Assembly: GCF_017592825.1 (NCBI RefSeq)
Contig: NZ_JAGFMD010000003.1
Location: forward strand, 248,001 to 312,000
DNA: 64,000 nt
Reading direction: 5' to 3'
Origin: Roseivirga sp. E12
GTDB taxonomy: Bacteria; Bacteroidota; Bacteroidia; Cytophagales; Cyclobacteriaceae
Each line of letters starts with the position of its first letter. Positions within the stretch are counted from its first letter, which is position 1. Shown piece after piece: positions 11,208 through 43,413 of the stretch. Below the pieces are notes generated by a model that was not told the DNA's origin, did no database searches, and saw only the letters and a list, made by a program, of their open reading frames with translations. A program made the position numbers and the translations under genes.

Positions 11208-11226
11208 TTTCCCTTGATTTTTTATT

Positions 11227-27300: not shown

Positions 27301-28200
27301 AAGTGTTACGCCAGCTGCAATGGCAGGAGCACCACCTACACCTTCAACGTCCGAGGCAAAAAGGGAATAACCGAAAATACTTTGACCTGCACTAATACCG
27401 AGCTCTGAGAAGCTAACCGCTACACCTTGAACGACTTGTGATCCGATTTCGATCAATGGGATTGGGTCATCCCCAACAGCTTGGCGTCTGAGGATTACAT
27501 AATCACTAAATGTTTGACCCGTTCCAGGCCAGTCAGAGGACGCAATTCCAACTAGAGTGCCATATGAAGCAGGATCGCCATTGGAGTCTAGAGACGTAAT
27601 TGCTGCGATGGCGATATTATCATTACCGCCCCGCTCAATCACTGGAAATACAGAAGTTGTAGGATCTGAAGTTTGAATCCCCGAGTACCATATGACATCG
27701 ACCCTTTCTGTTTCTACTTCAATACTTCCAGAGGCCAAGTCATCATCATTTACCAGAATGTTGTCATATCCAGCATTTAAGTTGCCTGATAGGTATATAG
27801 CGTCTGCTTCAGCTACAATGTCTGGGTCAATATCTATCGCGTCTGGGTTGGGCGCTGTATTGATCTGGTTAAGCTGATACCAGATGTTGACTAATCTGTC
27901 TGTAGATACTCGCCTAAGTAGAACAAGAGTGTCTGGTGCAAGAAAGCGATCATAAGTTGTGGCACCTACCACATATGAGCTAACAGCTACATTATTTCCT
28001 TGACCATAATTGATATTGTATTGTGCATTGGGAATGATACTGTTGCCCGCATCACTCGGAGCTGTAACTAGTGTAGTTGTAGTAGTACCTGTAGAAGTGG
28101 AGGTATTGATGGTAGAGATACCCGTCTGACCACTGACACTCGGACGTAGGACGAGCATTAGCGCACAGCATAGAAGGACTATGTGAAGTCTAGTTTTAAT
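21352..28200 (-). CDS. giant secreted T9SS cargo protein, paralogue 1
   Basis: About 2282 residues. After a signal peptide comes an N-terminal region, then four modules of about 410-455 residues beginning near 27195, 25845, 24480 and 23240. Each module has a GPGG-type opening, a LWLRAD/WxDQS motif, a LamG-like beta domain, ESYLAIKYGIT, DDIAGIGRDD, WLIWGND, RxWRV and YFTLGT. A fibronectin-like domain (SFEATVHNSNQVKLDWVTAS) and a T9SS type A sorting domain (AYPNPVLQGETLRISY, ending LKVLVR) close it. It should be exported by Sec, then T9SS, and fixed at the cell surface; LamG-like folds suggest carbohydrate or matrix binding. The first in-frame ATG (28158) lies inside the signal peptide. The frame is open to 28225 and the only sensible start is ATT at 28200, giving Lys2 and a 25-residue signal ending SGQ. 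Confidence 0.85.
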   Translation of the reverse strand: MKTRLHIVLLCCALMLVLRPSVSGQTGISTINTSTSTGTTTTTLVTAPSDAGNSIIPNAQYNINYGQGNNVAVSSYVVGATTYDRFLAPDTLVLLRRVSTDRLVNIWYQLNQINTAPNPDAIDIDPDIVAEADAIYLSGNLNAGYDNILVNDDDLASGSIEVETERVDVIWYSGIQTSDPTTSVFPVIERGGNDNIAIAAITSLDSNGDPASYGTLVGIASSDWPGTGQTFSDYVILRRQAVGDDPIPLIEIGSQVVQGVAVSFSELGISAGQSIFGYSLFASDVEGVGGAPAIAAGVTLSDITTFPSNTLSSVSGLDLVAGVSAAVASDDNLIETVGPGGYKAALTTWLKANDGAFVSNGGAASTEGTNVGFWEDQSVGNYDFTTLTTAPTFRSSTSSINFNPSVDFISATERGLQLGDNNDYNTGGPFTRKGLNIAFRTESSDVSTRQQLFEEGGGTNGLGIYIDGGMLYGAIWNRGNSGSSGAPWNDGTPTNFVSTSIGTDTEYILTMEFDGSSSSTGTITFYLNGQSFGTLSSVGLLYSHGNDIGLGDQDGGSRYHNNTTAAASFYGEISEFIYCNEPGSFPLSQRQRIESYLAIKYGITLDQSTPINYVNSDGTIIFNTTQNASLGGFLEYNNDIAGIGRDDNSELDQPASKSENTGSLVTIDRGATISTDDTWLIWGNDAGALTESASVSSPSNIDTRLERVWRVAERNEVLTTSVSFDLTGLGLSTDAADFSLLVASNSSGADFSNATVLSGGTFNGSVITFTGVDLDDAQYFTLGTAFFFCTPGRYNDGILTWLRADEGVTTATEGANVTAWVDQTPAGNNGSNITSPVYRATTNLINDNPTIDFSTGSTGLTIGGGVVTGINSGESLSKKFTIAFRTGDITSATRQVIYEQGGATRGLNVYIVSSTLHISGWNQAAGDGIGAPWNTAGAIATVNTTNIASNTSYVLTFDYAGNDAITGTITGYLNGQSFGTPLANVGRLYGHTDAIGLGDENSASRYDDGSTSGASSFDGFISEISYYDSPSSYLATDRNRIETSMAIKYGITLDQTSATNYTRSDATTIWDATTNATYNNDIAGIGKDDDACLDQKQSQSENTGSIVKMGLNTIEANNASNANTFDDDGDFLVWGNDGDFADQANANTSDLPASVTERMERIWRVDDTGAVGGTEISFDLTGLGYGTNLTDFQLIVSNSATMASGTTIPAASYDVGTNTVTFTGVDLTDGQFFTLATGREQCGPGGVTADLELWLRADLQVYNTGTTQATDGQTIATWADQSLSGADATDPSNLTTFETNTVNFNPAIEFNNDATSLEGSITTTAAGLSFITAGFINSTSGTDDALFEFRGGTSDDRSFLINSRYGGNTAYSSNFNEDAWNIWSVDHPSGNTANLFQNGASFESSYNANSSDAGLGTYNYTLGDDDTGGNDFVGFLGDVIAYQGSFTGTERQQIETYLAIKYGVTIDQTSATNYLFSDGSTVIWNATTNTAYNDDIAGIGRDDASCFSQKQSASINTDDILTVGLGSVAVDNASNVNSFTDDGDYLIWGNDGGSTNQANDNTSDIPSSLASRMERIWKVQDNGTVGSTELQFDLAALGYSTADASAYSLLIGNTATMADATIVTGGTFNGDVLSFSGVDLTDGQFFTIGTAFETCGPGGVNTNIALWLRADLEVFSDVGVTAAVDGNDVQQWNDQSSPQDNGSESNLAGANPVEPTFETNEINFNPALRFSDPNSNNAAYIETTTNTVSGDMTLISVFKTGQVDGTAGDFVNSPALIGASETSSTADYGLGMENGTIWINANTGTGFDAETPSTYNDNLPHIALATRVQTGGAVNIFVDGASAASGTGVTTALSGPTSFGIGNHSDGDVQAQYAGDIAETIVFSSALNANERTRVESYLGIKYGITRDVASLPAVEQDYLAADGAIIWDYDGQGTTYYNDIFGIGRDDLSCFEQTRSKSENSDALVDFNLPLGFDTNDSFILSGNDNAAIEQEGNNERPASINSRLNREWRVQESGTVGTIELTYDLSTITGPLGVGTNNLTQLRLMVDDDGDFSNGGTTLISPSAVNGSENTATFDVDFTNGQYYTLGSIEVAALPITLISFEATVHNSNQVKLDWVTASEVNNAFYTIERSTNGTDFETVGRIDGAGNSDVLLYYTYIDTKPVNGLSFYRIKQTDFNGKFDVSEMRSVRIKSEFKSSYKAYPNPVLQGETLRISYSIERDQTLRLTVLNSKGQMVLRKEEQALSSAEYIEISTKAFQKGLNLIRILDENQQVVTLKVLVR

Positions 28201-28514
28201 TACCGCGATGTTTAGGTGTAGAGCTTATTAGCTCAATTGTACTTTAATGATAGTACAAATTAATGGCATCACCACCCTACTTTTTATTTTTTTGTTCGAA
28301 AAAAGTGTTTGATAATGGTGTTTTGTACTGTGATGAACGGTATGTGACTGATACGCATGTTGCTCTTCTTTATAACTATTTCAATAAAACTGAATGTCTA
28401 AAAAAGACTTGAATGCCATCAAATAGTATTTGAAAACCAAATATTTAGATGTGTATCGCAGATAAAGAATAATAGTGTTTCAGGAGAAGGGCTCTAAAAT
28501 TGCATTTAGAGGGG
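28201..28514. other. intergenic region between giant genes 1 and 2
   Basis: 314 bp with no coding sequence I can support. It holds the small hairpin near the start of paralogue 1, a second weak stem (GTACT/AGTAC, 28238-28255) and T-rich tracts near 28280-28300. No clear terminator follows the stop of paralogue 2 and no convincing promoter box is visible. Confidence 0.5.
28221..28234 (-). promoter_or_regulatory. leader hairpin upstream of giant paralogue 1
   Basis: 5-bp stem GAGCT/AGCTC with a 4-nt loop, 20 nt upstream of the ATT. Paralogues 2 and 3 have longer hairpins 17 nt upstream of theirs. Confidence 0.35.
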
Positions 28515-31500
28515 CTATCGAACGAGAATTTTGAGAATAGTTGCATTGTTATCTCTGTCCAATATTCTTAATAGGTTGAGACCTTTTTTCATTTGACCTG
28601 TCGCCATCTGGAAGAAACCTTCAGACGCTTTTATTTCCTTTTCTTGTTTTAGGATGACCTGCCCTGTGTTATTGAGCACAATGACTTGCAAAGTTTGATC
28701 TGATCCAACCGCATAAGAAATTTTCAAATATTCTCCTTTGACCACTGGGTTAGGGTATGCATTGAAGGTAGCTTGGAACTGTCGTTCTACTTTTACAGAT
28801 CTGATTTCCGAATAGTCGAACTCCCCACTGAAGTCGGTTTGCTTTAACCTATAGAATGAAATTCCATTGACTGGATTTGCATCTACGAATGAGTAGTAAA
28901 GAAGGTCGCTGCTGTTACCAGCACCATCGAGTGTGGCTATAGTTTCAAAGTTTACCGCATCGGTACTTCTTTCAATAGTATAGAAGGCATTGTTGACTTC
29001 AGAGGCCGTAACCCAATCCAGTTTGACTTGATCTTCTTTGTAAGTATTGGCCTCGAAAGAGATTAGAGTGATGGGTAGTGCATCATTTTCGATAGAACCT
29101 AATGTATAGTACTGTCCATCAGTAAAGTCTACATTAAACGTTACTGTCTGGCTACCACCATTTGTAGCACTAGGAGAGATGATTGTGGTACCTCCATTAG
29201 AGAAGTCACCATCATCATCAACCAGCAATCTTGTTTGTGTTAGGTTATTACTACCAGAGGCTGTACCGGTCACCCCAGTAAGGTCAAAAGTCAATTCAAC
29301 CGTACCTACTGTACCAGTTTCTTGGACTTGCCACTCTCTGTTAAGTCTACTGTTGATGGTGGCTGGTCTTTCAGGGTTTCTTGTTGCCTCAATGGCTGCA
29401 TTATCATTACCAGATACTAACCAAGAATCGTCTACACTAAACCCTCCAGTATTGTTGATAGTTACCATTGCATCACTATTAGCACTTTGAGATTGTGTTT
29501 GATCCAGACAAGACAGATCATCTCTACCGATACCGAAGATGTCATTAGAGTAAGTAGTCTTATCACTGTAGTCCCAAATGGCACCACCATCACCAGCTCT
29601 ATAGTCTCTTTCATCTACTGATCCAGTAGCTCCGTCATCGGCACCAGCAAGGGTGATTCCATACTTGATGGCTAGGTATGATTCTACCCTGTTTCTTTGA
29701 TCAGAATCTAATACCTGATTATAGGCAATAGTTTCAGCAATGTCTCCAGCATACTGGGCGTCAACATCAGAAGTAAAGTGATTACCTATACCAAACCCAC
29801 CATCGGCATTGGTTAAATCTGTAGTAATCCCTGTGGCAGTAGCACTTTCAGCGGCATCTACATAAATGGTAAGATCACCCGGGTCATCATCCCTTACCCC
29901 AATAGCAATGTGCGGAAGGTTATTGTTATAAGCGTTAGAAGTTTCGGCCTCAAAGGCAGCATCTGAATCTGCATTAACCCATATGGTACCATTATCAAGG
30001 CCAATGGCATTATCAAGACCAGAGCCTGATCTGGTACTGAGTAGGGCGGGAGAGTTCACATTGTCATTGGCAGTACCTGATGTTTGACCAGTTTTAAAGA
30101 CTGAGATAAGCGTGAAGTCATTTTGACCTGTGTTGGCAGGGACGCTAAAGGCATCGTCAGTTTTAAAATAAGAGTTATTGGTAGAGCCGGGATCAGTGAA
30201 GTTTACAACCGGATTGAAGTTGATCTCGCTGGTTTGAAAGGTTGGCTCAATTGCATTAATTCCTCCTCCAAGATCCACTTCTTCCATATTGTGACCTTGA
30301 GCACCTTGATCATTCCAGAACAGTGCGTTGTTCCCGTCAGTTGCAGCTGTTGATCCAGGGTTGTTTGAAAATACTTCGGCATTAGCCTTTACCCACATGG
30401 CAATATTAGTATTGACTCCACCAGGTCCACAAATGGTAATGCCTGTGCCTATTGTAAAGAACTGACCATCGGTAAGGTCTACTCCTGTGAAGGATAGCAC
30501 ATTACCGTTTAAGGTTCCTCCGGAGATTACTGTGGCACCAGCCATTGTAGCCGTGTTACCCACAAGCAAGCTGAAAGCAGTAGCATCGGCCACAGAGTAG
30601 CCAAGGCCAGTCAGGTCGAATTGTAATTCTGTTTCACCAACAGTACCAGTGTCCTCAACCTTCCAGATACGTGTCATACGCTCAGAGACAGAGTTAGGCA
30701 CATCAAGAGTGTTTTTACTTGCCTCAGCAGTAGCGCCATTATCATTACCCCAAACTAGATAATCTCTATCGTCAGTAAAAGTATTGGCATTGGCCATGTT
30801 ATCCGTTGCCACAGCACCCAATCCGACTGTCAGAATATCATCAGTACCATCGGCAGTTGCCTGCTTTTGGCTAAAACATGAGAGGTCATCCCGGCCAATC
30901 CCGGCCACATCATTGTGGTAAGTAGAGTTGGCAGAATAGGTCCAAATGATGGTAGTACCATCAGAAGAGACATAGTCTCCCTCCCTAACACTACCAGAGA
31001 TTATCTCATTGGTAGTAGCATCATTGTCATTATCATTAGTTAGAGTGATACCATATTTGATGGCTAAATAACTGTTGACTTGTAACTCTTCAATTGGTGT
31101 AAGATCTGAGCTGTAGGCGATGACTTCGGTAATTTTACCACCATAAAAAGAACTTGTCCCTCTGAAGCCTAAATAGTCTTGCTGCGTACCAGTCAGCTGA
31201 ACTGTATTAGCATTAGTAACTGTTGAAAAACCACCATTTCTAGTTTCTTCCAAGGCATGCCCTGAACTATTTAGTTCGCCAAATAAAAGGTATGGAGAGG
31301 CATTCGGAGAGTTAAAGGCATCAAGCGTGCTACTATTTAAGTCATTACCAAACTGGGCAAGAGTGGCTTGGGTGTTTGTTCTATACCCAAAATGTATGAT
31401 TGTGTTATTGACTTCTCCGGTTCTATCAGCTCCTAGAATATAATTGTCGGCATTACCATCTGCTCTTTCGCCCGTTGCAACAAGTGCATAATTGGTATTT

Positions 31501-34500
31501 TTAATACCACTCAAGTCTATGGCCAGACGATCATTGGTTCCATCAAATTCCATAATTGGATTGAAGTTGATATTGTCTGTAGCATTGTTGTGATAAACTG
31601 GCGGGTTGCCGTCTGTCGTACCACTATTTGAATTACCAGATTGATCGGCCCAAGTGGCCACAGTTTGTCCATCAGTTGCTTGTGTAGTACCTGTATTGAA
31701 AGCATCTACGTCTGCTCTTAGCCATACATCTAGATCAGTACCTACGCCACCTGGGCTACAAGTAGACCTGGCCGTACCTAGTGTAAAGAAGTCTCCATCG
31801 CTAAAGTTTACCCCTGTAAAAGTGACAGTGTTACTACTGAATGAAGCAGCAGGAGTAATTGTACCACTGGCCATAGTAGAAGTACTTGAAGTAATGAGGT
31901 TAAAGTCAGAAGCTGAAGTTCCAGTATACCCTAAGCCGGTGAGGTCAAAAGTCACCGTAGTAGCACCAACAGTTCCTGTTTCCTGAACATGCCAGATGCG
32001 TTCCATTCTTTCGGTAATGATGCCTATAACATCAGAAGTATTCGCATTGGCTTGGGCGGTGAAGTCGTTGTCATTGCCCCAAACCTGGAAGCTGTTGTCA
32101 GCTGTGAAAGAATTGGCATTGGTGGCATTGCTCGAAGCAATTTCTCCAAGTCCCATGGTTACCAGGCCATCAGAGTTTATACTTGAGGATTGTTTTTGCA
32201 CAAAGCATTGTGCATCATCACGACCAATACCTGCAATGTCACTGTTATAGCCTGATGATTGATCGGTGAAGTCCCATATTACGGTACCCTCAGAATCTCT
32301 ATAATCTCTTTCATCAACTGAACCGGTAGCCCCATCATCGGCACTGTTTTTAGTTATACCATACTTGATGGCTAGGTAGGTTTCAACTCTATTTCTTTCA
32401 TCTGATGTCAAATCATCAGAAAAGACAATCGCCTCGGAGATGGTGCCAGCGAATTGGCCGTCCCAGAAGTTAAAATCATCCCTTAGATGGTTACCAATAC
32501 CAATACCATTATTGTCATTTAATGAGTTTAAGTCTGATACTGCCGATCCGTCACTAGCTCCATCTAAATAGAGCTGAATTGATCCTGCAGCTGTGGATTG
32601 AACCCTTGTAGAAAGGGCCATATGAGGTACTCCGTCATTATAGGTGCTAGTGCTCTGGGCACCGAAACCGGTTCCAGCTATGAGGCTTGAGTGAACCTGG
32701 CCACCTGAGTGCCCTAGTGCATAGAGATTTCCACCACCTCCGTCTTCATTGCTCAAGAATGCAGGTGAGTCGAAGGTAGCACTGAAGCCACTGGCATCAG
32801 ACTGTGTTGTTGTAAATACAGCGATGAGGGACATGTCGTCTGTCGCTGGGTTAGTAGAGGTCGTTAGCCATGAATTAGTGGAGTTCCCCGATCCTTGGTC
32901 TGTGAAAGACACAGCAGGGTTGAAGTTTGTGCTGACTGATGTAAACGTTGGCGGTACTGGCGTACCCCCTCCATTAGTTTCTGTGGCGTTGTATCCATTT
33001 AGTGATTGGTCTGCCCAAGTAGCCACATTTTGTCCGTTTGTTGCCTGGGTAGTTCCCGTATTGAACACTTCAACATCTGCTCTTAACCATAATGCCAAGT
33101 CGGCTTCCACCCCACCAGGAGCACAGGTTTCAAAGTCAGTGCCTAGGGTAAAGTATTGACCATCTTCTAGGTCTATGCCGGTGAAGGTGATGATGTTACC
33201 ATTAAATGTTCCACCGCTTACTACAGTGGCATTGCTAAAGTCTGCATCGTTTCCACTGACAGTTACTGCATTAGTACCTGCTATCAATAAGCTGAAATTG
33301 GCTGCATTGGAGCTTAATCCTAAACCTGTTAAATCAAAAGAAACGGAGGTGGTCTGTACTTCTTTTTCCTCAGCCACACGCCATACTCTTGTAAGTCTTG
33401 CGTCAATGGTATCAGGCATGGTGAGGGCAGTGGTTTCGGTCAATGCGCCATTATCATTACCCCAGATTAACCAGGAGTCATCCGTTCCGATGGTGCCTCC
33501 TCTGTCAATGATGACTATACCATCCGAGTTTTCACTTCTTGACTTGGGCTGGTCTAGCTCGGAGTCATCATCTCTACCTATACCAGCAATGTCATTATTG
33601 TATTGCTTGTATCCTCCTGCAGTCTCATCATTAGTAGCATCGAAGATTACGGTTCCCCCTGAGTTGACATAGTTTTTTGCAACACTCTGATCTAGAGTAA
33701 TACCATACTTAATGGCGAGGTAACTTTCTATTCTATTTCTTTGTGCAGAGGTAAATGAACCCGGCTCATTACAGTAGATCAACTCAGAGATTTCACCTTC
33801 AAAAGAATTGGTACTTGCATTGGTGCCGTCATCGTACTGGGTGGAACCATCAGAACCACCAAACTCGATACCATCGGTATCAGAAAAGAGAAGCCCTACA
33901 CTAGATAGGGTACCAAAGCTTGCTCCATTCAAGTAAGGGGTTAATGTACCGGTTGTGCCACTGTTTCCGTCAAGTTCTAAGGTTAGAATGTATTCAGTAT
34001 TTGTGCTCACAGCAGTACTGACTGTGGTGATGTTTGTTCCATTATTCCAGGGAGAACCACTGCCGTCATTATTTCTATTATAAGCAGAGACGTGCAAGTT
34101 TCCAGCACGGATATAGACAATAATACCTCTGGTATTACCACCTTGCTCATAGATGACCTGACGATCAGTCACATCGGTAGTGCTGGTTCTAAAGGCAAAG
34201 TTTAAGCCTTTGTTAGTGTATGAGGCAGCAGTGTTGAAATCAGTATTGTTGGCAATGGTAAGGCTTGTAGCACTGGCTGTAAAGTCAACAGTAGGGTTAA
34301 AGTTAATGGCACTAGAAGTACTTCTATAAGTCGGGGCAGTTGTACCAGTAGTAGCATCATGGTCACCGATCCAGTGATCTTGCCAATCAGTGACAGTAGA
34401 CCCATCAGTGGAAGTGGTCACATCATCAGCCTCATTGGCCTTTAACCAAGTAGAAAGCGCGGCTTTATACCCTCCAGGGCCCTTATTCTCGACTATTATG

Positions 34501-35519
34501 TTGGTGGTACTGGCTACTCCTGCAGCTACTCCAGCTACAAGGTCAAGCCCTGAATCGGAAGAGAGTGTATTGGTAGGGAAGGTTGTAATATCTGTTAAAT
34601 CAACCCCAGTTTTAAAGACGGTGATTGCTCCTGAGGTAATGACATCATCTGTATTGGTTGTAAACTCATCGGCAATGTCAGCAGGAAAGATAGAATAGCC
34701 GAAGATGGACTGGTCAGCTGCTACTCCCATATCAGAGAAGCTGACTCCTACACCCTGAACAACCTGACTAGTAATATCCAATAAGGGAATAGGGGCAACA
34801 CCTACAGTTTCTCTTCTGAAGATAACATAGTCAGTATAGGTTTGTCCGGTACCAGGCCAAAAGGTTTCTCCTATGCCAATGGCAGTACCATAAGAGGCAG
34901 GATCACCATTGGAATCCAGACTCAAAATAGGTGCAACAATAATGTTATCGTTTCCGCCTCTTTCAATAATTGGGAAAATGGCCTGAGCAGGAATGGCCGT
35001 TTGAATGCCTGAATACCAGATGACATCTACTCGCTCGGTTTCTACTGAGATACTTGACGATGATAAGTCATCATCATTTACTAAGATATTGTCATAACCT
35101 GCATTGAGCGTACGTGAAAGATAAATTGCATCAGCCTCGGCTACTTCCTCGGGGTCTATGGTGATTACATCACCAACATTATCGATACCACTGTCTTCAT
35201 ACCAGATATTTACCCTTCTTGAGCTAGATACTCTACGCAACACTAGGGTATCTGGGCTCACGAAGTTACTATAGGTTAAACCTCCTGAGATATAGGATGT
35301 GACAGCAACTTGGTTCCCTCTACCATAGTTGACTGTGTAGAGTGTTGAAGCATCAATATTTATTGTAGCATCACTTGGGGAAGTTACTGATGCGTCTGAA
35401 TCGGTAGCAGCTGTATTGGATATAGATATAGTGGTGATAGTCGTCTGGGCATATAGCGAAGGCGATAGTATAAGCATGAGCATAAAGCCCAGCAAGCCTA
35501 TGGGTTGTTTAAGTTTAAT
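28515..35519 (-). CDS. giant secreted T9SS cargo protein, paralogue 2
   Basis: About 2334 residues, with the architecture of paralogue 1: signal peptide, N-terminal region, four LamG-like modules (openings near 34480, 33120, 31760 and 30430), fibronectin-like domain and T9SS type A sorting domain (AYPNPVVKGEYLKISY, ending LKILVR). Module 3 carries a LamG-like domain unlike the matching module of paralogue 3, with its own motifs (FNPIMEFDGTNDRL, YLLFGELNSSG). Long stretches are otherwise nearly identical to paralogue 3 at DNA level. No ATG, GTG or CTG lies between the upstream stop and the signal peptide; TTG 35495 and ATG 35483 lie inside it. ATT at 35519 gives Lys2, Lys4 and a 25-residue signal ending YAQ. 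Expected at the cell surface; ligand unknown. Confidence 0.86.
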   Translation of the reverse strand: MKLKQPIGLLGFMLMLILSPSLYAQTTITTISISNTAATDSDASVTSPSDATINIDASTLYTVNYGRGNQVAVTSYISGGLTYSNFVSPDTLVLRRVSSSRRVNIWYEDSGIDNVGDVITIDPEEVAEADAIYLSRTLNAGYDNILVNDDDLSSSSISVETERVDVIWYSGIQTAIPAQAIFPIIERGGNDNIIVAPILSLDSNGDPASYGTAIGIGETFWPGTGQTYTDYVIFRRETVGVAPIPLLDITSQVVQGVGVSFSDMGVAADQSIFGYSIFPADIADEFTTNTDDVITSGAITVFKTGVDLTDITTFPTNTLSSDSGLDLVAGVAAGVASTTNIIVENKGPGGYKAALSTWLKANEADDVTTSTDGSTVTDWQDHWIGDHDATTGTTAPTYRSTSSAINFNPTVDFTASATSLTIANNTDFNTAASYTNKGLNFAFRTSTTDVTDRQVIYEQGGNTRGIIVYIRAGNLHVSAYNRNNDGSGSPWNNGTNITTVSTAVSTNTEYILTLELDGNSGTTGTLTPYLNGASFGTLSSVGLLFSDTDGIEFGGSDGSTQYDDGTNASTNSFEGEISELIYCNEPGSFTSAQRNRIESYLAIKYGITLDQSVAKNYVNSGGTVIFDATNDETAGGYKQYNNDIAGIGRDDDSELDQPKSRSENSDGIVIIDRGGTIGTDDSWLIWGNDNGALTETTALTMPDTIDARLTRVWRVAEEKEVQTTSVSFDLTGLGLSSNAANFSLLIAGTNAVTVSGNDADFSNATVVSGGTFNGNIITFTGIDLEDGQYFTLGTDFETCAPGGVEADLALWLRADVEVFNTGTTQATNGQNVATWADQSLNGYNATETNGGGTPVPPTFTSVSTNFNPAVSFTDQGSGNSTNSWLTTSTNPATDDMSLIAVFTTTQSDASGFSATFDSPAFLSNEDGGGGNLYALGHSGGQVHSSLIAGTGFGAQSTSTYNDGVPHMALSTRVQSTAAGSIQLYLDGASDGSAVSDLNSLNDNNGIGIGNHLRDDFNFWDGQFAGTISEAIVFSDDLTSDERNRVETYLAIKYGITKNSADDGATGSVDERDYRDSEGTVIWDFTDQSSGYNSDIAGIGRDDAQCFVQKQSSSINSDGLVTMGLGEIASSNATNANSFTADNSFQVWGNDNDFTAQANANTSDVIGIITERMERIWHVQETGTVGATTVTFDLTGLGYTGTSASDFNLITSSTSTMASGTITPAASFSSNTVTFTGVNFSDGDFFTLGTARSTCSPGGVGTDLDVWLRADVDAFNTGTTQATDGQTVATWADQSGNSNSGTTDGNPPVYHNNATDNINFNPIMEFDGTNDRLAIDLSGIKNTNYALVATGERADGNADNYILGADRTGEVNNTIIHFGYRTNTQATLAQFGNDLNSSTLDAFNSPNASPYLLFGELNSSGHALEETRNGGFSTVTNANTVQLTGTQQDYLGFRGTSSFYGGKITEVIAYSSDLTPIEELQVNSYLAIKYGITLTNDNDNDATTNEIISGSVREGDYVSSDGTTIIWTYSANSTYHNDVAGIGRDDLSCFSQKQATADGTDDILTVGLGAVATDNMANANTFTDDRDYLVWGNDNGATAEASKNTLDVPNSVSERMTRIWKVEDTGTVGETELQFDLTGLGYSVADATAFSLLVGNTATMAGATVISGGTLNGNVLSFTGVDLTDGQFFTIGTGITICGPGGVNTNIAMWVKANAEVFSNNPGSTAATDGNNALFWNDQGAQGHNMEEVDLGGGINAIEPTFQTSEINFNPVVNFTDPGSTNNSYFKTDDAFSVPANTGQNDFTLISVFKTGQTSGTANDNVNSPALLSTRSGSGLDNAIGLDNGTIWVNADSDAAFEAETSNAYNNNLPHIAIGVRDDDPGDLTIYVDAAESATATGITTDLTNADGGFGIGNHFTSDVDAQYAGDIAETIAYNQVLDSDQRNRVESYLAIKYGITLAGADDGATGSVDERDYRAGDGGAIWDYSDKTTYSNDIFGIGRDDLSCLDQTQSQSANSDAMVTINNTGGFSVDDSWLVSGNDNAAIEATRNPERPATINSRLNREWQVQETGTVGTVELTFDLTGVTGTASGSNNLTQTRLLVDDDGDFSNGGTTIISPSATNGGSQTVTFNVDFTDGQYYTLGSIENDALPITLISFEANTYKEDQVKLDWVTASEVNNAFYTIERSTDAVNFETIATLDGAGNSSDLLYYSFVDANPVNGISFYRLKQTDFSGEFDYSEIRSVKVERQFQATFNAYPNPVVKGEYLKISYAVGSDQTLQVIVLNNTGQVILKQEKEIKASEGFFQMATGQMKKGLNLLRILDRDNNATILKILVR
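28738..29835 (-). repeat. near-identical block shared with 36118-37215
   Basis: C-terminal part of module 4 plus the fibronectin-like domain. It aligns to paralogue 3 at a constant offset of 7380 bp with only scattered substitutions and no indel that I can see. Confidence 0.85.
33110..34485 (-). repeat. near-identical block shared with 40457-41832
   Basis: All of module 1. It aligns to paralogue 3 at a constant offset of 7347 bp with few substitutions and no visible indel, far more alike than the flanking sequence. Confidence 0.85.
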
Positions 35520-35536
35520 AGTAGTAGTGTCTGTAA

Positions 35537-35552
35537 GAAGGCCCCAGCCTTC
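35537..35552 (-). promoter_or_regulatory. leader hairpin upstream of giant paralogue 2
   Basis: GAAGGC-TGGG-GCCTTC read on the minus strand: 6-bp stem, 4-nt loop, ending 17 nt before the ATT codon. The same position in paralogue 3 has a related stem with changed bases that still pair. Confidence 0.55.
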
Positions 35553-35820
35553 AAATAAAATTTGTGTTAAACGCTATCCGCTAATTGTGATAGTGAGAAG
35601 TGCTTAGATGAAAGTAAAGGGATACTTCTGAGTCTTCTGAATTTGAGAAGGTGAGAGAAGTGCATTGAGCAGTTAGGGGATGCAAAAATCGACTATTTGG
35701 GCAAACTGACAACAATTCGTAGACAAAATCCTTCACAATCGCAGAAAAGTGATACGATCTGTTATTAAAATACAGAAAAAAGAATTTGACATATATGAAT
35801 CTGTCGTTCACATGACTTTT

Positions 35821-35847
35821 TATGTTTGCTTACAATTGGCAAACATA
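35821..35847. repeat. 9-bp perfect inverted repeat
   Basis: TATGTTTGC and its complement separated by 9 bp, between the end of giant gene 3 and the upstream region of giant gene 2. No T-run follows on the minus strand, so it is not a typical terminator; it could be an operator. Confidence 0.5.
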
Positions 35848-35894
35848 ATCTTACCATAAACTGAAGGTCTAGCTTTGGGACGAGGTCAAATCCT

Positions 35895-38800
35895 CTACCT
35901 GAGAATTACTTTGAGAGTGACAGTATTGTTGTTTTGATCTAGTATTCTGATGAGGTTAAGGCCCCTATCTAGTTTACTAGTTTCAAGCTCCACATAGTCC
36001 TGAGTGACCAGCACATCTTTACGTTCAGAAAGAATCACTTGCCCTCTGGTATTTAGGACGGTGAAGCTTAGGGTCTGATCTCTATCTACTTTGTAGGATA
36101 CTCTAAGTTTGTCTCCTTTGACCACCGGGTTAGGGTATGCATTGAAGGTAGCTTGGAACTGTCGTTCTACTTTGACAGATCTGATTTCCGAATAATCGAA
36201 CTCTCCACTGAAGTCGGTTTGTTTTAACCTATAGAATGAGATTCCATTGACTGGATTTGCATCTACAAAAGAGTAGTAAAGAAGGTCGCTGCTGTTGCCA
36301 GCCCCATCAAGTGTGGCTATAGTTTCAAAGTTTACCGCATCGGTACTTCTTTCAACGGTATAGAAAGCATTGTTTACTTCAGAGGCCGTGACCCAATCTA
36401 ACTTGACTTGATCTTCTTTGTATGTGTTTGCCTCGAAAGAGATTAAAGTGATTGGTAGTGCATCATTTTCGATAGAACCTAATGTATAGTACTGCCCATT
36501 GGTAAAGTCTACATTAAACGTTACTGTCTGGCTACCACCATTTGTAGCACTAGGAGAGATGATTGTAGTACCTCCATTAGAGAAGTCACCATCATCATCA
36601 ACAAGCAATCTTGTTTGTGTTAGGTTATTACTACCAGAGGCTGTACCGGTCACCCCAGTAAGGTCAAAAGTCAATTCAACAGTACCTACTGTACCAGTTT
36701 CTTGGACTTGCCACTCTCTGTTAAGTCTACTGTTGATGGTGGCAGGTCTTTCAGGGTTTCTTGTCGCCTCAATGGTTGCATTATCATTACCAGATACTAA
36801 CCAAGAATCGTCAACACTAAAACCTCCAGTATTGTTGATAGTTACCATTGCATCACTGTTAGCACTTTGAGATTGTGTTTGATCAAGGCATGAAAGATCA
36901 TCTCTACCAATACCAAAGATGTCATTAGAGTAAGTAGTCTTACCACTGTAGTCCCAAATAGTACCACCATCACCCGCTCTATAGTCTCTTTCATCTACAG
37001 AGCCAGTAGTCCCGTCATCAGCACCAGCAAGAGTGATTCCATACTTGATGGCCAGGTATGATTCTACCCTGTTTCTTTGATCAGAATCTAATACCTGATT
37101 ATAGGCAATGGTCTCCGCAATGTCACCAGCATACTGAGCATCAACATCAGAAGTAAAGTGGTTTCCTATACCAAACCCACCATCGGCATTGGTTAAATCA
37201 GTAGTAATTCCTGTGACCTGTGTAGCTGCAGTGGCAGCATCTACATAAATATTTAGATTGCCCGTGGCATCGTTTCTTACCCCCGTTGCTATATGAGGAA
37301 GGTTATTATTATAGGTTGAACTAGTTTCTATTTCGAATGCTGCATCTGAATCTGCATTAACCCATATGGTACCATTTTCCATACCAATGGCATTGTCAAG
37401 GCCAGAGCCCGACCTGGTACTGAGTAGGGCAGGAGAGTTCACATTATCATTGGCAGTACCTGATGTTTGACCTGTTTTAAAGACAGAGATAAGTGTAAAG
37501 TCATTGTTGACGGTACCAGCAGATGCTGCACCAGTTCTCATATAAGAGTTATTGGTAGAGCCAGGGTCAGTGAAGTTCACCACAGGGTTGAAGTTGATCT
37601 CATTGGTTTGGTAGGTAGGCTCGATTGGTCCACCACCACCAAGGTCTATTTCTGAGGCGTTAAGATTGGCAGTACCTTGGTCATTCCACTGGATGGCATT
37701 ATTACCATCAACAGCAGCAGTAACCCCAGCATCAGAGAACACTTCAGTATTTCCTTTCAACCAAAGGGCAATATTGGTATTGACCCCACCAGGTCCACAA
37801 ATGGTAATTCCTGTACCGATTGTAAAGAACTGCCCATCGGTCAGATCTACTCCTGTGAAAGATAGGATACTACCGTTTAGTGTACCTCCCGAAATAACTG
37901 TGGCATCAGCCATAGTGGCTGTGTTACCGACAAGCAGCGTAAAAGCAGTAGCATCAGCAACCGAATAGCCAAGGCCGGTCAGGTCGAATTGTAGTTCAGT
38001 TTCCCCGACAGTGCCAGTGTCCTCAACCTTCCAGATACGTGTCATACGCTCAGAGACAGAGTTAGGCACATCAACAATGTTTTTACTTGCCTCAGCAGTA
38101 GCACCATTATCATTACCCCATACCAAATAGTCCCCATCGTCAGTAAATGTATTTGCATTGTCAATATTACTTGCGGCCACCTCGGTCAATCCAATGGTAA
38201 GAATGTCATCTGTATTTTCACTACTTGACTGTACTTGCATAAAACAACCATCATCATCGCGTCCAATTCCAGCAACATCATTATGGTAAGTTGAATGAAC
38301 TGAATAATCCCAAATTACAGTCCCGTCTGCGCTTCTATAATCTCTTTCGTCAAAAGAAACGGTCCCAATATCATCTCCATCTGCAATACTTCTTGTGATA
38401 CCATATTTTATGGCCAAGTAAGTTTCAACTTTAGTTCTTTCATCTGAGGTTAGGATATCACTGAATATGATTACTTCAGGAATATCACCTGCAAATTGTG
38501 CTCCAGTTACAGGGTCCACGTGATTTCCTATACCAACACCAGCAGGGTCAATTAAAGCAACGTTATCTGAAGTTCCAGAAGTTACATTTTCAGCATCGAT
38601 ATAAAGTTCCAAAGGACCAGAAGCAGCTTGTTGTCTTGTTGCCATTGCTAAATGGGGAATCCCATCAGCATAAGTAGGGCTGACTGAACTTCTTGTTCCA
38701 AGCCCGTCTCCGGCAGCAATTTTTGCATGAACTCTGCTTCCTGAAATCCCTAGTGCATAATCATTCCCTGTCCCACTTGATTCAGCACCTATGATAGCTG

Positions 38801-41800
38801 GAGATGACCAAAACTCTGTTGTTCCATCGGTTTGAGAAGTAGAGAATATTGATATTAAGGTCATGTCACCTGAAGCAGGATTAGAGGAAGTTTCTAGATA
38901 AGAGTTCGAAGTAGTACCTGGGTCAGTGAACCTGACAGTAGGGTTGAAATTAATCGCAGATGTTTGATATGTTGGTTCCTGAGGAGTACCTCCTTGGTTT
39001 ACCTCTGCTGCGTTTCGAGCATTTCCGCTTTGATCTGCCCACGATGTCACATCAGCCGCATTGACAGTGGTATTTGTTCCTGCATCAGCTTTTAGCCATA
39101 GTCCAAGGTTATCAGTTACTCCCGCCGGTCCGCAAGTTGATCTAGCAGTGCCTAAAGTGAAGAAGTCTCCATCGCTAAAGTTTACCCCTGTGAAAGTAAC
39201 AGTGTTACTACTGAATGAAGCGGCAGGAGTAATTGTACCGCTCGCCATGGTAGAAGTACTTGAAGTAATCAAGTTAAAGTCAGAAGCCGAAGTTCCGGTA
39301 TACCCTAGACCTGTAAGGTCAAAGGTAATTGTCGTTTCTCCAACAGTTCCTGTTTCCTGAACATGCCAAATTCTGTCCATACGCTCAGTAATAATCCCTG
39401 GCACATCTACTGTTTCTGCACTCGCCTGTGCCGTGGCTCCATTGTCATTCCCCCAAACTTGGAAGCTGTTGTCAGCAGTGAAAGAGTTGCTATTGGCAGC
39501 ATTTGTAGCTTCTATACTTCCTAATCCCATGGTCACGAGTCCATCGGTATTAATGCTTGAAGACTGTCTTTGCTCAAAGCATTGGGCATCATCTCTTCCA
39601 ATACCGGCAATATCATTGTTATAGCCTGAAGATTGATCTGTGAAGTCCCAAATTACGGTACCTTCTGCATCTCGATAGTCTCTTTCATCGACAGACCCAG
39701 TAGTCCCATCATCGGCACTGTTTTTAGTGATTCCATACTTGATGGCTAAATAAGTCTCTACTCTGTTTCTTTCATCTGATGTTAGGTCATCAGAGAAAAC
39801 AATTACTTCAGAAATGGTTCCTTGCAGTTGACCATCATTGTTAAATGGTTGATAATGATTACCAATTCCGATACCAGTACCTAAGTTGAGGGCAGCAACA
39901 TCTGAAACCGCTGAAGCTTCATTGTTTCCATCGATATATAGTTGAACTGAACCGGCAGCGGTTGATTGTACTCTGGTGGCCAGGGCAATATGAGAATTCG
40001 CATCATTGAATGTACCAGTGGTTCGTGCACCATACTGGTCACCAGTGATTATTTTGGCATGAACGCGTCCTGCTGACTGACCAAGTGAGTAATTAGCTCC
40101 AGGGTTACTGTCATCTGTACTAACTAAGGTAGGAGCATCATAGGCTGCGGTATTACTACTTGCGTCTGTTTGGCTACTGGAATAGACCGCAATTAATGAC
40201 ATGTCTCCAGTTGCCGGGATAGTTGATGTTCTGAGCCAAGAGTTGTTGGTATTACTTTGGTCGGTAAATGAAATTGTGGGGTTAAAGTTTGTGCCTGATG
40301 TCACAAAGGTCGGTTCTACTGGTGTCCCTCCGCCATTGGCTTCAGCGGCATTGGTTCCATTTAAAGATTGATCTTCCCAAGAAGTAACATTCGCACCATT
40401 GGTGGTGGTGTTGGTACCTGAGTCAGCTTCAAACCACAGTGCCAAATCGGCCTCAACTCCGCCAGGAGCACAGGTTTCAAAGTCAGTGCCGAGTGTAAAG
40501 TACTGCCCATCTTCTAGGTCTATGCCTGTAAAAGTGATGATATTACCATTGAATGTTCCTCCGGTTACTACTGTGGCATTGCTAAAGTCTGCATCGTTTC
40601 CACTGACAGTTACTGCATTAGTACCTGCTATCAATAAGCTAAAATTGGCTGCATTGGAACTTAATCCTAAACCTGTTAAATCAAAAGAAACGGAGGTGGT
40701 CTGTACCTCTTTTTCTTCTGCCACGCGCCATACTCTTGTAAGCCTAGCGTCAATGGTATCAGGCATGGTGAGGGCAGTGGTTTCGGTTAATGCGCCATTA
40801 TCATTACCCCAGATTAACCAGGAGTCATCTGTTCCGATGGTACTTCCTCTGTCAATGATGACTATACCATCCGAGTTTTCACTTCTTGATTGTGGCTGGT
40901 CTAGCTCGGAGTCATCATCTCTACCGATACCAGCAATGTCATTGTTGTATTGCTTGTATCCCCCTGCAGTCTCATCATTAGTGGCATCAAAGATTACAGT
41001 TCCCCCTGAGTTGACATAGTTTTTTGCAACACTCTGATCTAGAGTAATACCATACTTAATGGCCAGGTAACTTTCTATTCTATTTCTTTGAGCAGAGGTA
41101 AAGGAACCAGGCTCATTACAATAGATCAGCTCAGAGATTTCACCTTCAAAAGAATTGGTACTTGCATTGGTGCCATCATCATACTGGGTGGAACCATCAG
41201 AACCACCAAACTCGATACCATCAGTATCAGAAAAGAGAAGCCCTACACTAGAAAGTGTTCCAAAGCTTGCTCCATTCAAGTAAGGAGTTAAGGTACCGGT
41301 TGTGCCACTGTTTCCGTCAAGTTCTAAGGTTAGAATGTATTCAGTATTTGTGCTAACAGCAGTACTGACTGTGGTGATGTTTGTTCCATTATTCCAGGGA
41401 GAACCACTGCCATCATTATTTCTATTATAAGCAGAGACATGCAAGTTTCCACTACGGATATAGACAATAATACCTCTGGTATTACCGCCTTGCTCATAGA
41501 TGACCTGGCGATCAGTCACATCGGTGGTACTGGTTCTAAAGGCAAAGTTTAAGCCTTTGTTAGTGTATGAGGCAGCGGTATTGAAATCAGTATTGTTGGC
41601 AATGGTAAGGCTTGTTGCACTGGCAGTAAAATCAACCGTAGGGTTAAAGTTAATGGCACTAGAAGTACTTCTATAAGTAGGAGCAGCCGTACCAGTAGTT
41701 GCATCATGATCACCGATCCAGTGGTCTTGCCAATCAGTGACAGTAGACCCATCAGTGGAAGTGGTCACATCATCAGCTTCATTAGCCTTTAACCAAGTAG

Positions 41801-42857
41801 AAAGCGCTGCTTTATATCCTCCGGGGCCTTTATTTTCCACAATCAAATTACCTGAGCTTGCCACACCAGCAGCCACACCAGCTACAAGGTCAAGTCCTGA
41901 ATCAGAAGATTTAGTAGTAGTAGGAAAAGTAGAAATATCTGCCAAGTCGATTCCACCAGCAATAGTTACTTCGGGAGGTGTTGTGTTCAGTGCGGTACCT
42001 GAGGTATATCCATTTACTACATCGGCAGGGAAAATAGAATAACCGAAGATTGTTTCATCAGCGGCAATGTCTAAGTTGGTAAAGCTAACAGCCACTCCTT
42101 GAACAGTTTGGCTACCAATATCCAAAAGAGGGATAGGGTCAACACCGACAGTTTCCCGTCTTAAGATGATATAACCTGTATAGGTTTGTCCAACCCCTGG
42201 CCAATCATTTTCACTAATACCAATAGCAGTACCATAGGTTGCAGGATCACCGTTGGCATCTAAAGACAAAATAGGAGCAACCACGATATTGTCATTACCT
42301 CCTCTTTCTATAATTGGGAACACGGCTTCATCAGGATCAGGCGTCTGAATTCCTGAATACCAGATGACATCCACTCTTTCTGTTTCCACCTCGATACTAC
42401 CAGAGGCAAGATCATCATCGTTTACAAGGATATTGTCATAGCCGGTGTTCAAAGAGTTGGACAGATAGATTGCATCTGCCTCGGCTACCTTGGTGGGCTG
42501 GATAGTTACCACACTGGCAGTGACTCCATTATCTTGATACCAAATATTTACTAGCCTCGATGAAGAGATTCTACGAAGTATTAGTGTATCTGGAGCTACG
42601 AAGTTGTTGTAAGTAAGTCCTCCAACAGTGTAAGATGTTACTCTTACATCATTACCAGAACCGTAATTAAGTGTATAAGCGGCACTAGCACTAACTGAAT
42701 TAGATGCATCACTCGGAGAGGTGACATTATCCGTAGAGCTTGTAGCAGTTTCATTGGTAACCGTAATAGCAGTAATATCCGACTGCGCATGAAGCGTAGT
42801 GGATAGTATAAGCATGAGCATACAGCCCAGCCAACCTATGGGTTGTTTTCTTTTAAT
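35895..42857 (-). CDS. giant secreted T9SS cargo protein, paralogue 3
   Basis: About 2320 residues: signal peptide, N-terminal region, four LamG-like modules (openings near 41830, 40470, 39135 and 37800), fibronectin-like domain, and T9SS type A sorting domain (AYPNPVVKGDKLRVSY, ending LKVILR). It is the closest relative of paralogue 2; modules 1 and 4 and the fibronectin-like domain are nearly identical, while the LamG part of modules 2 and 3 and the sorting domain differ. The frame is open to 43010 with an ATG at 42920, but that start would put a 21-residue tail before the signal peptide. By alignment with paralogues 1 and 2, the start is ATT at 42857, giving residues KRKQP and a 25-residue signal ending HAQ. 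Role as surface binding protein is inferred from LamG-like folds. Confidence 0.86.
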   Translation of the reverse strand: MKRKQPIGWLGCMLMLILSTTLHAQSDITAITVTNETATSSTDNVTSPSDASNSVSASAAYTLNYGSGNDVRVTSYTVGGLTYNNFVAPDTLILRRISSSRLVNIWYQDNGVTASVVTIQPTKVAEADAIYLSNSLNTGYDNILVNDDDLASGSIEVETERVDVIWYSGIQTPDPDEAVFPIIERGGNDNIVVAPILSLDANGDPATYGTAIGISENDWPGVGQTYTGYIILRRETVGVDPIPLLDIGSQTVQGVAVSFTNLDIAADETIFGYSIFPADVVNGYTSGTALNTTPPEVTIAGGIDLADISTFPTTTKSSDSGLDLVAGVAAGVASSGNLIVENKGPGGYKAALSTWLKANEADDVTTSTDGSTVTDWQDHWIGDHDATTGTAAPTYRSTSSAINFNPTVDFTASATSLTIANNTDFNTAASYTNKGLNFAFRTSTTDVTDRQVIYEQGGNTRGIIVYIRSGNLHVSAYNRNNDGSGSPWNNGTNITTVSTAVSTNTEYILTLELDGNSGTTGTLTPYLNGASFGTLSSVGLLFSDTDGIEFGGSDGSTQYDDGTNASTNSFEGEISELIYCNEPGSFTSAQRNRIESYLAIKYGITLDQSVAKNYVNSGGTVIFDATNDETAGGYKQYNNDIAGIGRDDDSELDQPQSRSENSDGIVIIDRGSTIGTDDSWLIWGNDNGALTETTALTMPDTIDARLTRVWRVAEEKEVQTTSVSFDLTGLGLSSNAANFSLLIAGTNAVTVSGNDADFSNATVVTGGTFNGNIITFTGIDLEDGQYFTLGTDFETCAPGGVEADLALWFEADSGTNTTTNGANVTSWEDQSLNGTNAAEANGGGTPVEPTFVTSGTNFNPTISFTDQSNTNNSWLRTSTIPATGDMSLIAVYSSSQTDASSNTAAYDAPTLVSTDDSNPGANYSLGQSAGRVHAKIITGDQYGARTTGTFNDANSHIALATRVQSTAAGSVQLYIDGNNEASAVSDVAALNLGTGIGIGNHYQPFNNDGQLQGTISEVIVFSDDLTSDERNRVETYLAIKYGITKNSADDGTTGSVDERDYRDAEGTVIWDFTDQSSGYNNDIAGIGRDDAQCFEQRQSSSINTDGLVTMGLGSIEATNAANSNSFTADNSFQVWGNDNGATAQASAETVDVPGIITERMDRIWHVQETGTVGETTITFDLTGLGYTGTSASDFNLITSSTSTMASGTITPAASFSSNTVTFTGVNFSDGDFFTLGTARSTCGPAGVTDNLGLWLKADAGTNTTVNAADVTSWADQSGNARNAAEVNQGGTPQEPTYQTSAINFNPTVRFTDPGTTSNSYLETSSNPASGDMTLISIFSTSQTDGTTEFWSSPAIIGAESSGTGNDYALGISGSRVHAKIAAGDGLGTRSSVSPTYADGIPHLAMATRQQAASGPLELYIDAENVTSGTSDNVALIDPAGVGIGNHVDPVTGAQFAGDIPEVIIFSDILTSDERTKVETYLAIKYGITRSIADGDDIGTVSFDERDYRSADGTVIWDYSVHSTYHNDVAGIGRDDDGCFMQVQSSSENTDDILTIGLTEVAASNIDNANTFTDDGDYLVWGNDNGATAEASKNIVDVPNSVSERMTRIWKVEDTGTVGETELQFDLTGLGYSVADATAFTLLVGNTATMADATVISGGTLNGSILSFTGVDLTDGQFFTIGTGITICGPGGVNTNIALWLKGNTEVFSDAGVTAAVDGNNAIQWNDQGTANLNASEIDLGGGGPIEPTYQTNEINFNPVVNFTDPGSTNNSYMRTGAASAGTVNNDFTLISVFKTGQTSGTANDNVNSPALLSTRSGSGLDNAIGMENGTIWVNADSDAAFEIETSSTYNNNLPHIATGVRNDATGNLNIYVDAATAATQVTGITTDLTNADGGFGIGNHFTSDVDAQYAGDIAETIAYNQVLDSDQRNRVESYLAIKYGITLAGADDGTTGSVDERDYRAGDGGTIWDYSGKTTYSNDIFGIGRDDLSCLDQTQSQSANSDAMVTINNTGGFSVDDSWLVSGNDNATIEATRNPERPATINSRLNREWQVQETGTVGTVELTFDLTGVTGTASGSNNLTQTRLLVDDDGDFSNGGTTIISPSATNGGSQTVTFNVDFTNGQYYTLGSIENDALPITLISFEANTYKEDQVKLDWVTASEVNNAFYTVERSTDAVNFETIATLDGAGNSSDLLYYSFVDANPVNGISFYRLKQTDFSGEFDYSEIRSVKVERQFQATFNAYPNPVVKGDKLRVSYKVDRDQTLSFTVLNTRGQVILSERKDVLVTQDYVELETSKLDRGLNLIRILDQNNNTVTLKVILR
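36118..37215 (-). repeat. near-identical block shared with 28738-29835
   Basis: Partner copy of the block in paralogue 2, constant offset 7380 bp. Confidence 0.85.
40457..41832 (-). repeat. near-identical block shared with 33110-34485
   Basis: Partner copy of module 1 in paralogue 2, constant offset 7347 bp. Confidence 0.85.
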
Positions 42858-42874: not shown

Positions 42875-42891
42875 GAAGGTCCAAGACCTTC
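42875..42891 (-). promoter_or_regulatory. leader hairpin upstream of giant paralogue 3
   Basis: GAAGGTC-TTG-GACCTTC read on the minus strand: 7-bp perfect stem, 3-nt loop, ending 17 nt before the ATT codon, the same spacing as in paralogue 2. Confidence 0.55.
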
Positions 42892-42917: not shown

Positions 42918-42943
42918 CATCAAGGAGAATACCCTCCTTGATG
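42918..42943. repeat. 10-bp perfect hairpin in the leader of giant paralogue 3
   Basis: CATCAAGGAG and its complement with a 6-nt loop, about 60 nt upstream of the ATT codon. No T-run directly follows on either strand. It could be a leader structure; paralogues 1 and 2 lack an obvious equivalent. Confidence 0.5.
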
Positions 42944-43413
42944 TCGAGAAATTTTTTAAACTTTTTTTGTGTAGTTTTTTCACGGCCTTTTTCCAATGGA
43001 GTATAACCATTAGTCAAGATCGTGCCAGAGAGTTCTGAATGTTGATTGGGATGCGAAAATCGAGCTTTTTAACGAATCTGCAAGAAGTTCAGCAAGATAT
43101 TTATTCCCATTTTGGGAAAACCTAGGCTAGGAGTGAGAAAACGCATAAAATTGTTTTTCACATCATTGAATTTGTTGTTGGAATATATTTTTAAGAAATC
43201 TGAGATTTATGAATACGAACATAAACCCGACTTATCGGGTGATAAATCGCTTGGTAATAGACCTTTGGTTATCAACCATAATTCCTACTGACTATCACCC
43301 TTCAATCGACCTACTCGGAATATAAATTTTATGCTGAGTTGGGTATTAAAAATGATCACCATATTGGTGGATACTTATGTCCTACTTGTCTATTGTGACG
43401 ACCTATCCTGAGT
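42944..43413. other. intergenic region between giant gene 3 and purM
   Basis: About 470 bp without a gene I can support. It contains the 16-bp box at 43048-43063 shared with the upstream region of paralogue 2, and a short hairpin ACCCGA-N4-TCGGGT (43225-43240) that could be a weak purM terminator. Confidence 0.5.

Follow-up and report, generated by a model that had tools for sequence, protein, structure and literature searches.

Predicted near-cognate start codons and a candidate small RNA regulator of giant secreted proteins in Roseivirga

Roseivirga sp. E12 is a marine bacterium with a genome of 4.70 Mb (G000), and we analyzed 64,000 nucleotides of its 358-kb contig C29 (positions 248001-312000; hereafter the window). 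The window contains three neighboring genes for giant proteins, each with a signal peptide, internal repeats and a tail of the type found in cargo of the type IX secretion system (T9SS). From a comparison with the other copies of this family we think it likely that translation begins at the near-cognate codons AUU, AUC or AUA in one subclade, which includes the three window genes. We also lean, a little less firmly, toward the view that a small RNA (sRNA) regulates the giants. The leader motif that points to this RNA, and the matching RNA gene, were found in the present analysis and were not part of the preliminary description of this DNA, which had proposed ATT starts for all three genes.

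Results

Candidate ATT starts of the window genes

The three genes and their proposed start codons are as follows.

21352-28200, minus strand: giant paralog 1 (L038), 2282 amino acids (aa) from ATT, with a signal peptide and a T9SS C-terminal sorting domain
28198-28200, minus strand: ATT, proposed start of paralog 1; the orthologs have ATC in G001 and ATT in G011
28515-35519, minus strand: giant paralog 2 (L033), 2334 aa from ATT
35517-35519, minus strand: ATT, proposed start of paralog 2; the earliest standard start in frame is TTG at residue 9
35895-42857, minus strand: giant paralog 3 (L034), with coding sequence from ATT on; the open frame that reaches up to ATG 43010 has a non-coding character
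42855-42857, minus strand: ATT, proposed start of paralog 3; ATT also in G001

The preliminary description was exact on the coordinates: ATT stands at 28200, 35519 and 42857 on the minus strand, AAA is the next codon in all three, and the pair lies 24 codons ahead of the glutamine (Q) at the signal-peptide cleavage site, which is residue 25 in each protein. Its account of missing starts also held. Paralog 1 has no in-frame ATG, GTG, TTG or CTG between the upstream stop and the hydrophobic core of the signal peptide, and paralog 2 has no standard start ahead of the TTG at residue 9. This account covered paralogs 1 and 2 only; paralog 3 has upstream in-frame starts (ATG 43010, then GTG, TTG, ATG, GTG and TTG). 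A mechanical finder of open reading frames (ORFs) places the three starts at ATG 28158, TTG 35495 and ATG 43010, and gene finders may mis-place the starts of the giants. The lack of a standard start exceeds what chance would give. On contig C29, a crude rule finds that 82 of 215 ORFs of at least 200 aa begin like a signal peptide. Four of these 82, paralogs 1 and 2 among them, lack ATG, GTG and TTG in the 25 codons before the last lysine or arginine, and we take the remaining two for membrane proteins or false positives. The window ORF at 11218-12081 on the plus strand has a hydrophobic N-terminal segment and likewise lacks a standard start in the 25 codons leading up to its last lysine or arginine; it is perhaps a membrane protein with a start further upstream.

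In paralogs 1 and 2 the earliest in-frame standard starts, ATG or TTG, fall within the signal peptide itself (residue 15 of paralog 1; residue 9, 13 or 15 of paralog 2), and translation from these would give a short, uncharged leader. We consider such internal starts improbable. In paralog 1 only 10 residues would be left before Q, four of which form a hydrophobic run, and, as had been noted before, no internal start in either gene keeps a lysine or arginine ahead of the core, whereas the relatives keep one there. T9SS cargo requires Sec export, and the T9SS-type tail of the giants implies that they too are exported by Sec.

The start position in the giant family

We examined the starts of all 51 copies of the family. 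An in-frame ATG, GTG or TTG was counted as usable if it kept a lysine or arginine before the hydrophobic core, with the signal peptide called by a crude rule. Six copies were flagged as start-less, and two of these (L054 and L060) were removed by hand, since each has an ATG (L060 having no charged residue by the rule). The remaining four lack a usable standard start and have a near-cognate codon at -24 from Q: ATT in L033, L038 and L039 (G011), and ATA in L043 (G002). In paralog 3 and in L035, its ATT-bearing relative in G001, standard starts were found only within the leader. L039 has a stop codon two codons ahead of its ATT, so that an upstream start is impossible there. L037, the ortholog of paralog 1 in G001, reads ATC AAT with the ATC at -23. 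In the same subclade of the tree, the corresponding position (-23) is occupied by ATG in L040, L041, L049 and L050, and L036 reads ATT ATT AAG followed by ATG at -21, three codons past it.

The homologous start position in this subclade thus holds ATG, ATT, ATC or ATA, with near-cognate codons in the relatives from G001, G011 and G002 and ATG in those from G008 and G010. Whichever of the four codons stands there, relatives have a lysine or arginine between it and the core. The second codon varies more: Lys2 (AAA) is common to the window copies and L035, while L037 and L039 have AAT and L043 has CTT. The preliminary description had counted orthologs with an ATG elsewhere upstream against an ATT start. 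Orthologs with ATG do exist, yet they have it in the homologous place, as would be expected if ATG and ATH (H = A, C or T) replace each other at a true start. A start at ATT or its near-cognate equivalents is the best explanation for the three window genes and for L035, L037, L039 and L043; conservation of such a start across the whole family did not survive the comparison of 51 copies. Paralogs 2 and 3 are close duplicates, so the window contributes about two independent ATT cases, to which L039 (ATT) and L043 (ATA) add others elsewhere.

Several observations weigh against this interpretation. By the rule 37 of the 51 copies have a usable ATG, 13 have none and paralog 3 has one in the leader only (two rule errors removed). 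A GTG precedes the ATC of L037 by two codons, and in L037, L038 and L043 an ATC three codons upstream, inside the leader motif described below, is another near-cognate candidate. No Shine-Dalgarno (SD) sequence, sought as AGGA, GGAG, GAGG or AAGG in the 20 nt before the codon, was present in any of the eight copies examined. The base at -3 of the proposed start is A in L033-L035 and L043 and G in L037-L039. A frameshift from an overlapping upstream frame was considered and rejected: within 200 nt, only short TTG-started frames pass the codon in L033, L036 and L039, and no overlapping frame passes it in L034, L035, L037, L038 or L043.

Near-cognate starts elsewhere

To judge from infC, the gene for initiation factor 3 (IF3), this lineage probably does use near-cognate starts. 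A search for infC gave 38 matches, of which 30 loci were read and all but one parsed (13 from Roseivirga and 16 from other genera of the same order). All 13 Roseivirga loci, including that of E12 (L089 / L214, G000:C11 at about 321.7 kb), show ATC as the apparent start, 5 nt after a perfect AAGGAGG, and ATG first appears three codons later. At the 16 other loci the start reads as ATT or ATA in eight, ATC in three, ATG in two and ambiguous in three; several have no ATG. The infC gene of E. coli is autoregulated. The giants would resemble infC in having AUU, AUC or AUA as the start codon and would likely be IF3-sensitive too. They differ, and here infC counts against the interpretation above, in that the weak codon of infC follows a perfect SD (AAGGAGG), whereas the giants have no SD and encode secreted products.

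Non-AUG initiation, which the preliminary description had presented as new for such a family, is not new as such, given the Roseivirga infC starts and the AUU and AUA starts reported for S. aureus cvfC1 and ccpN, respectively, in PMC13009471. The AUU start of E. coli pcnB is taken from a title cited within that paper. The giants would share with pcnB, cvfC1 and ccpN a low-efficiency non-AUG start that limits expression, as PMC13009471 describes it. The same text gives cvfC1 and ccpN extended or strong SD motifs, which the giants do not have, and this again tells against the parallel; in its available part we saw no mention of an sRNA site or a giant secreted product. According to PMC6847099, Bacteroidota hardly use SD sequences; what tunes initiation in them is weak structure together with A residues upstream, for example at -3. 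Full-text searches of one library for work on Roseivirga start codons or small RNAs gave no paper.

Coding boundary, leader hairpins and selection

The frame of paralog 3 stays open for 51 codons upstream of its ATT and contains ATG, GTG and TTG. Paralog 3 could accordingly start at ATG 43010 or at one of the upstream GTG or TTG codons, which would leave paralogs 1 and 2 as the only unusual cases; we give this little credence. In the comparison with G001, the 120 nt ahead of ATT have 9/9/11 differences at the three codon positions, and the 697 nt that follow it have 20/2/125 (Fisher p 4.7e-7 for position 3), although the boundary is blurred over about 90 nt past the ATT, where there are few differences. 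The flat upstream pattern indicates that the stretch beginning at ATG 43010 most likely belongs to the leader. The frame also closes a short way upstream in L036 and L033, and the stretch contains hairpins that covary by eye. Hairpins in the leaders of the three genes are listed here.

28221-28234, minus strand: hairpin GAGCT-AATA-AGCTC of paralog 1, adjoining the predicted pairing site; pair changes against G001 and G011 by eye
28237-28258, minus strand: hairpin TTGTACT...AGTACAA of paralog 1
35537-35552, minus strand: hairpin GAAGGC-TGGG-GCCTTC of paralog 2, ahead of ATT
42875-42891, minus strand: hairpin GAAGGTC-TTG-GACCTTC of paralog 3, just before the start region (by eye)
42919-42942, minus strand: hairpin ATCAAGGAG-GGTATT-CTCCTTGAT of paralog 3

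The last of these, AUCAAGGAG-GGUAUU-CUCCUUGAU as RNA, becomes AUCGAGGAG/CUCUUCGAU and AUCGGGGAG/CUUUCCGAU in G001 and G011, where two A-U stem pairs are changed to G-C on both sides (pairs by eye).

The giant genes are under purifying selection, to judge from their substitutions. Paralog 1 and its G001 ortholog have a nonsynonymous divergence (dN) of 0.085 against 0.76 synonymous differences per site (pS), which is saturated, and the ratio of nonsynonymous to synonymous divergence (dN/dS) is 0.076 for paralog 3 and G001 and 0.186 for paralogs 2 and 3. Such selection speaks against silent genes. Phase-variable surface proteins are common in Bacteroidota, and that together with the presence of tandem paralogs without AUG might suggest silent alleles that need to recombine with an ATG-bearing leader to be expressed; this is hardly credible, as selection on the giants is strong, different species have kept the same leaders and start codons, the tree groups copies from separate species together, and no inverted repeat of at least 25 nt was found in 21000-44700.

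Some further upstream elements were noted by eye. A palindrome like TTCCCAnnnTGGGAA, a possible operator, lies at window positions 43104-43118 and upstream of many giant genes. Upstream of L037-L039, GTAGGGT is followed some 10-20 nt on by TTTGTA(C/G) or the like, with similar boxes at L069 and L079; these are possibly an alternative-sigma promoter. The leaders also have TGGCAC-type boxes; we considered sigma-54 for these and dropped the idea, the -12 element being inconsistent.

A leader motif and a matching RNA gene

Many giant leaders share CACCUAAACA in differing reading frames. In each of the 51 copies the region near the start was scanned for its closest 10-nt match to CACCTAAACA, which had no mismatch in 13 copies and one in seven; one scan used a two-mismatch cut and the other took the best match regardless of mismatches. 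The motif is read as HLN, as SPKH or out of frame, and its conservation in different frames marks it as a nucleic-acid signal. The pattern CACCTAAACAY occurs five times in the E12 genome, and at one of the four other places an intrinsic terminator follows immediately after its reverse complement. We refer to this locus as the RNA gene. It is listed with the two sites of predicted pairing in the window.

G000:C31:158689-158812, minus strand: RNA gene locus, with the motif complement before an intrinsic terminator
28208-28218, minus strand: predicted sRNA pairing site CACCTAAACAT of paralog 1 (-22.1 kcal/mol; 10-nt exact complement)
35598-35613, minus strand: predicted sRNA pairing site TTTCATCTAAGCACTT in the leader of paralog 2 (-25.8 kcal/mol, lowest of 50 giant leaders)

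The RNA gene is present in 19 of 19 Roseivirga genomes, with one strongly matching locus in each (weakest best match, E 4.1e-27). Its core of about 105 nt, formed by a hairpin, a linker and a terminator, is nearly identical among them. The single-stranded linker AGGUGUUUAGGUGAAAGG is complementary to the leader motif CACCUAAACA, and the linker, AGGTGTTTAGGTGAAAGGGAGTCGCTCC, is identical in 18 of the 19 genomes; a terminator hairpin with a T run likewise occurs in 18 of the 19. G009 deviates in the linker and has a broken T run. The gene downstream varies between genomes, so the RNA gene appears to be free-standing. As a candidate promoter element, 12 of the 18 genomes aligned have a TAnnTTTG-type box about 100-125 nt ahead of the linker, and the other six differ there (by eye). 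Covariation within the RNA is slight, with two-sided changes in three of 35 pairs. A covariance model run on 148 genomes sampled from the taxonomic family found no convincing member outside the genus; three Roseivirga matches were strong, and two weak ones from other organisms look, on reading, like matches to the terminator only. Rfam 15 gave no match at gathering score for the RNA locus or for 20 of the 51 leader loci, where a search allowing E up to 10 gave three matches (E 2.7-8.7) and two matches (E 1.9 and 2.1), respectively; at the gathering threshold the window yielded one tRNA and nothing else. We infer that the gene encodes a previously undescribed trans-acting sRNA.

Complementarity of the giant leaders to the linker

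We compared 50 giant leaders (L078, at a contig end, was omitted) with 203 ORF starts of C29, controls that still include the three window giants. An exact linker complement of at least 9 nt is present in 24 of the 50 leaders and five of the 203 controls, and 300 shuffled linkers gave a mean of 0.77 and a maximum of 13 leaders out of 50. The Fisher value of 3e-15 for this enrichment treats related copies as independent and so overstates the case. Predicted duplex energies point the same way: the median is -20.7 kcal/mol for the giants and -16.8 for the controls, 100 shuffled linkers have medians between -15.1 and -19.2, and 29 of 50 giants reach -20 kcal/mol or lower against 26 of 203 controls. 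In paralog 1 the 10-nt core of the site ends 8 nt ahead of ATT. Synonymous sites are saturated, so retention of these sites is hardly inertia.

Other results speak against a common pairing partner. Exact matches of 9 nt are missing from 26 of the 50 leaders. The paralog 2 site needs G-U pairs, and the longest exact complement in that leader (7 nt) lies elsewhere. At a cut of -16 kcal/mol the giants (44 of 50) fall within the range of the shuffled linkers (median 37, maximum 49), and L034, L035 and L036, at -15.8, -15.5 and -14.4 kcal/mol, are weaker than the control median, with no strong site. The 13-nt target sequence is not evidently enriched genome-wide over its reversed control, and the reversed control pattern of CACCTAAACAY occurs seven times in the E12 genome, against five for the pattern itself. 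The RNA is also present in G009, G015 and G017, where no giant copy was found; two of these assemblies are 80-84% complete and the third is in about 540 contigs, and the RNA has other targets there or the copies lie in gaps.

The motif could instead be a protein site. Under this explanation CACCTAAACA would be bound by a translation repressor or a DNA-binding factor, and the complementarity to the RNA would be incidental. Conservation irrespective of reading frame suits a protein site, and Bacteroidota have RNA-binding proteins such as RbpB, as PMC11697453 relates. We regard a protein site as unlikely. The copies match differing stretches of the linker, CACCUAAACAC near the start and CCUUUCACCUAAA far upstream, as pairing predicts, and in G004 and G007 RNA-like genes have the same linker before unrelated terminators. 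In these, TGTTTAGGTGAAA stands directly before the terminator hairpin at L257 (G004:C45:94389 and 94889) and L265 (G007:C54:60453), which are possible sibling sRNAs.

The motif and its complement were also seen at other loci. CACCTAAACA lies just before a terminator-like hairpin at L085 (G000), L259 (G018), L243 (G010) and L244 (G003), and in at least three of these four species the hairpin precedes a zinc-ribbon-like gene; these loci are possible sponge RNAs. The coding region of ftsZ has a linker complement at L177 (G000), L176 (G001), L181 (G017) and L240 (G018), FtsZ identity having been confirmed by Pfam domains on L240 only, and in G000 a near match, CTTTCAACTAAACA, lies just before the apparent ATG of ftsZ (L200, about 1480-1515).

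Distribution and domains of the giant proteins

The family was found in 16 of 99 genomes searched (the E12 genome counted), every one of them Roseivirga, and within the genus the 51 copies are spread over 16 of 19 genomes. Among the 36 family loci of the named collection, 28 are titled Roseivirga and eight come from metagenome-assembled genome records titled Rhodospirillaceae (three), Cyclobacteriaceae (three) and Cytophagales (two); the Rhodospirillaceae label may be a binning error. With PF18962 (cut-off 27) paralogs 1, 3 and 2 score 28.8, 26.9 and 21.4 bits. With the NCBIfam sorting domain (cut-off 23) paralogs 3 and 2 score 23.3 and 22.8, and paralog 1 has no NCBIfam match. The giants appear to share a C-terminal sorting domain and a signal peptide with T9SS sorting-domain proteins (PF18962 / TIGR04183) and differ from these in their length of more than 2000 residues, their internal repeats and an N-terminal domain with no solved-structure match. 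This domain, about 260 aa after Q, was aligned from 28 of the 51 copies. Its predicted structure is a confident, mostly beta model (predicted local distance difference test score, pLDDT, 86.4) that had no match in the PDB at E <0.001.

Discussion

Near-cognate initiation, as proposed here, would require the 30S subunit to settle on a weak AUU in a leader without an SD, and the initiator tRNA to read AUU, AUC or AUA despite the third-position mismatch. Each giant protein of the window would then begin with fMet-Lys, followed by the rest of an ordinary Sec signal peptide of 24 residues. If infC is a guide, proofreading by IF3 would keep the output of the giants low, and their expression would be IF3-sensitive. 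The linker AGGUGUUUAGGUGAAAGG is predicted to pair with the leaders of paralogs 1 and 2, as with those of roughly half the family, often across or just before the start codon. The RNA, when made, would pair there and probably block or tune ribosome loading. In some copies the pairing site is 150-260 nt ahead of the Q codon, so the RNA may activate rather than repress. The sequences themselves show that standard starts are lacking, that ATG and ATH codons occupy homologous places, where coding gives way to non-coding sequence, that selection is purifying, that the RNA gene is conserved and that complementarity exceeds the controls; the use of AUU, dependence on IF3, expression of the RNA and the direction of regulation are inferred from there.

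There is a parallel in Bacteroides thetaiotaomicron, where, according to PMC11697453, the sRNAs FopS and GibS pair at start regions of mRNAs for outer-surface proteins, and pairing by FopS-10 blocks loading on a susC mRNA. The same source counts 14 FopS paralogs, compared with one strongly matching locus per Roseivirga genome, and the predicted Roseivirga targets are giant T9SS proteins, not susC.

Near-cognate starts and leader pairing with the RNA suggest together that production of the giants is probably low and controlled at the translation step. We put forward tentatively, and regard as doubtful in its entirety, a double lock on translation, in which SD-less near-cognate starts tied to IF3 and an sRNA found throughout the genus, joined in some species by siblings with the same linker, act over the same initiation site, and the RNA perhaps also acts on ftsZ mRNA. 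The near-cognate starts compared here, in infC and S. aureus, carry a strong SD, whereas those of the giants are on 7-kb secreted genes with none. In a phylum poor in SD sequences, near-cognate codons on such genes would show what else guides the ribosome to AUU. The RNA gene provides a concrete candidate regulator for Roseivirga. If true, the double lock would link the display of these giants, which are costly to make, with growth and division.

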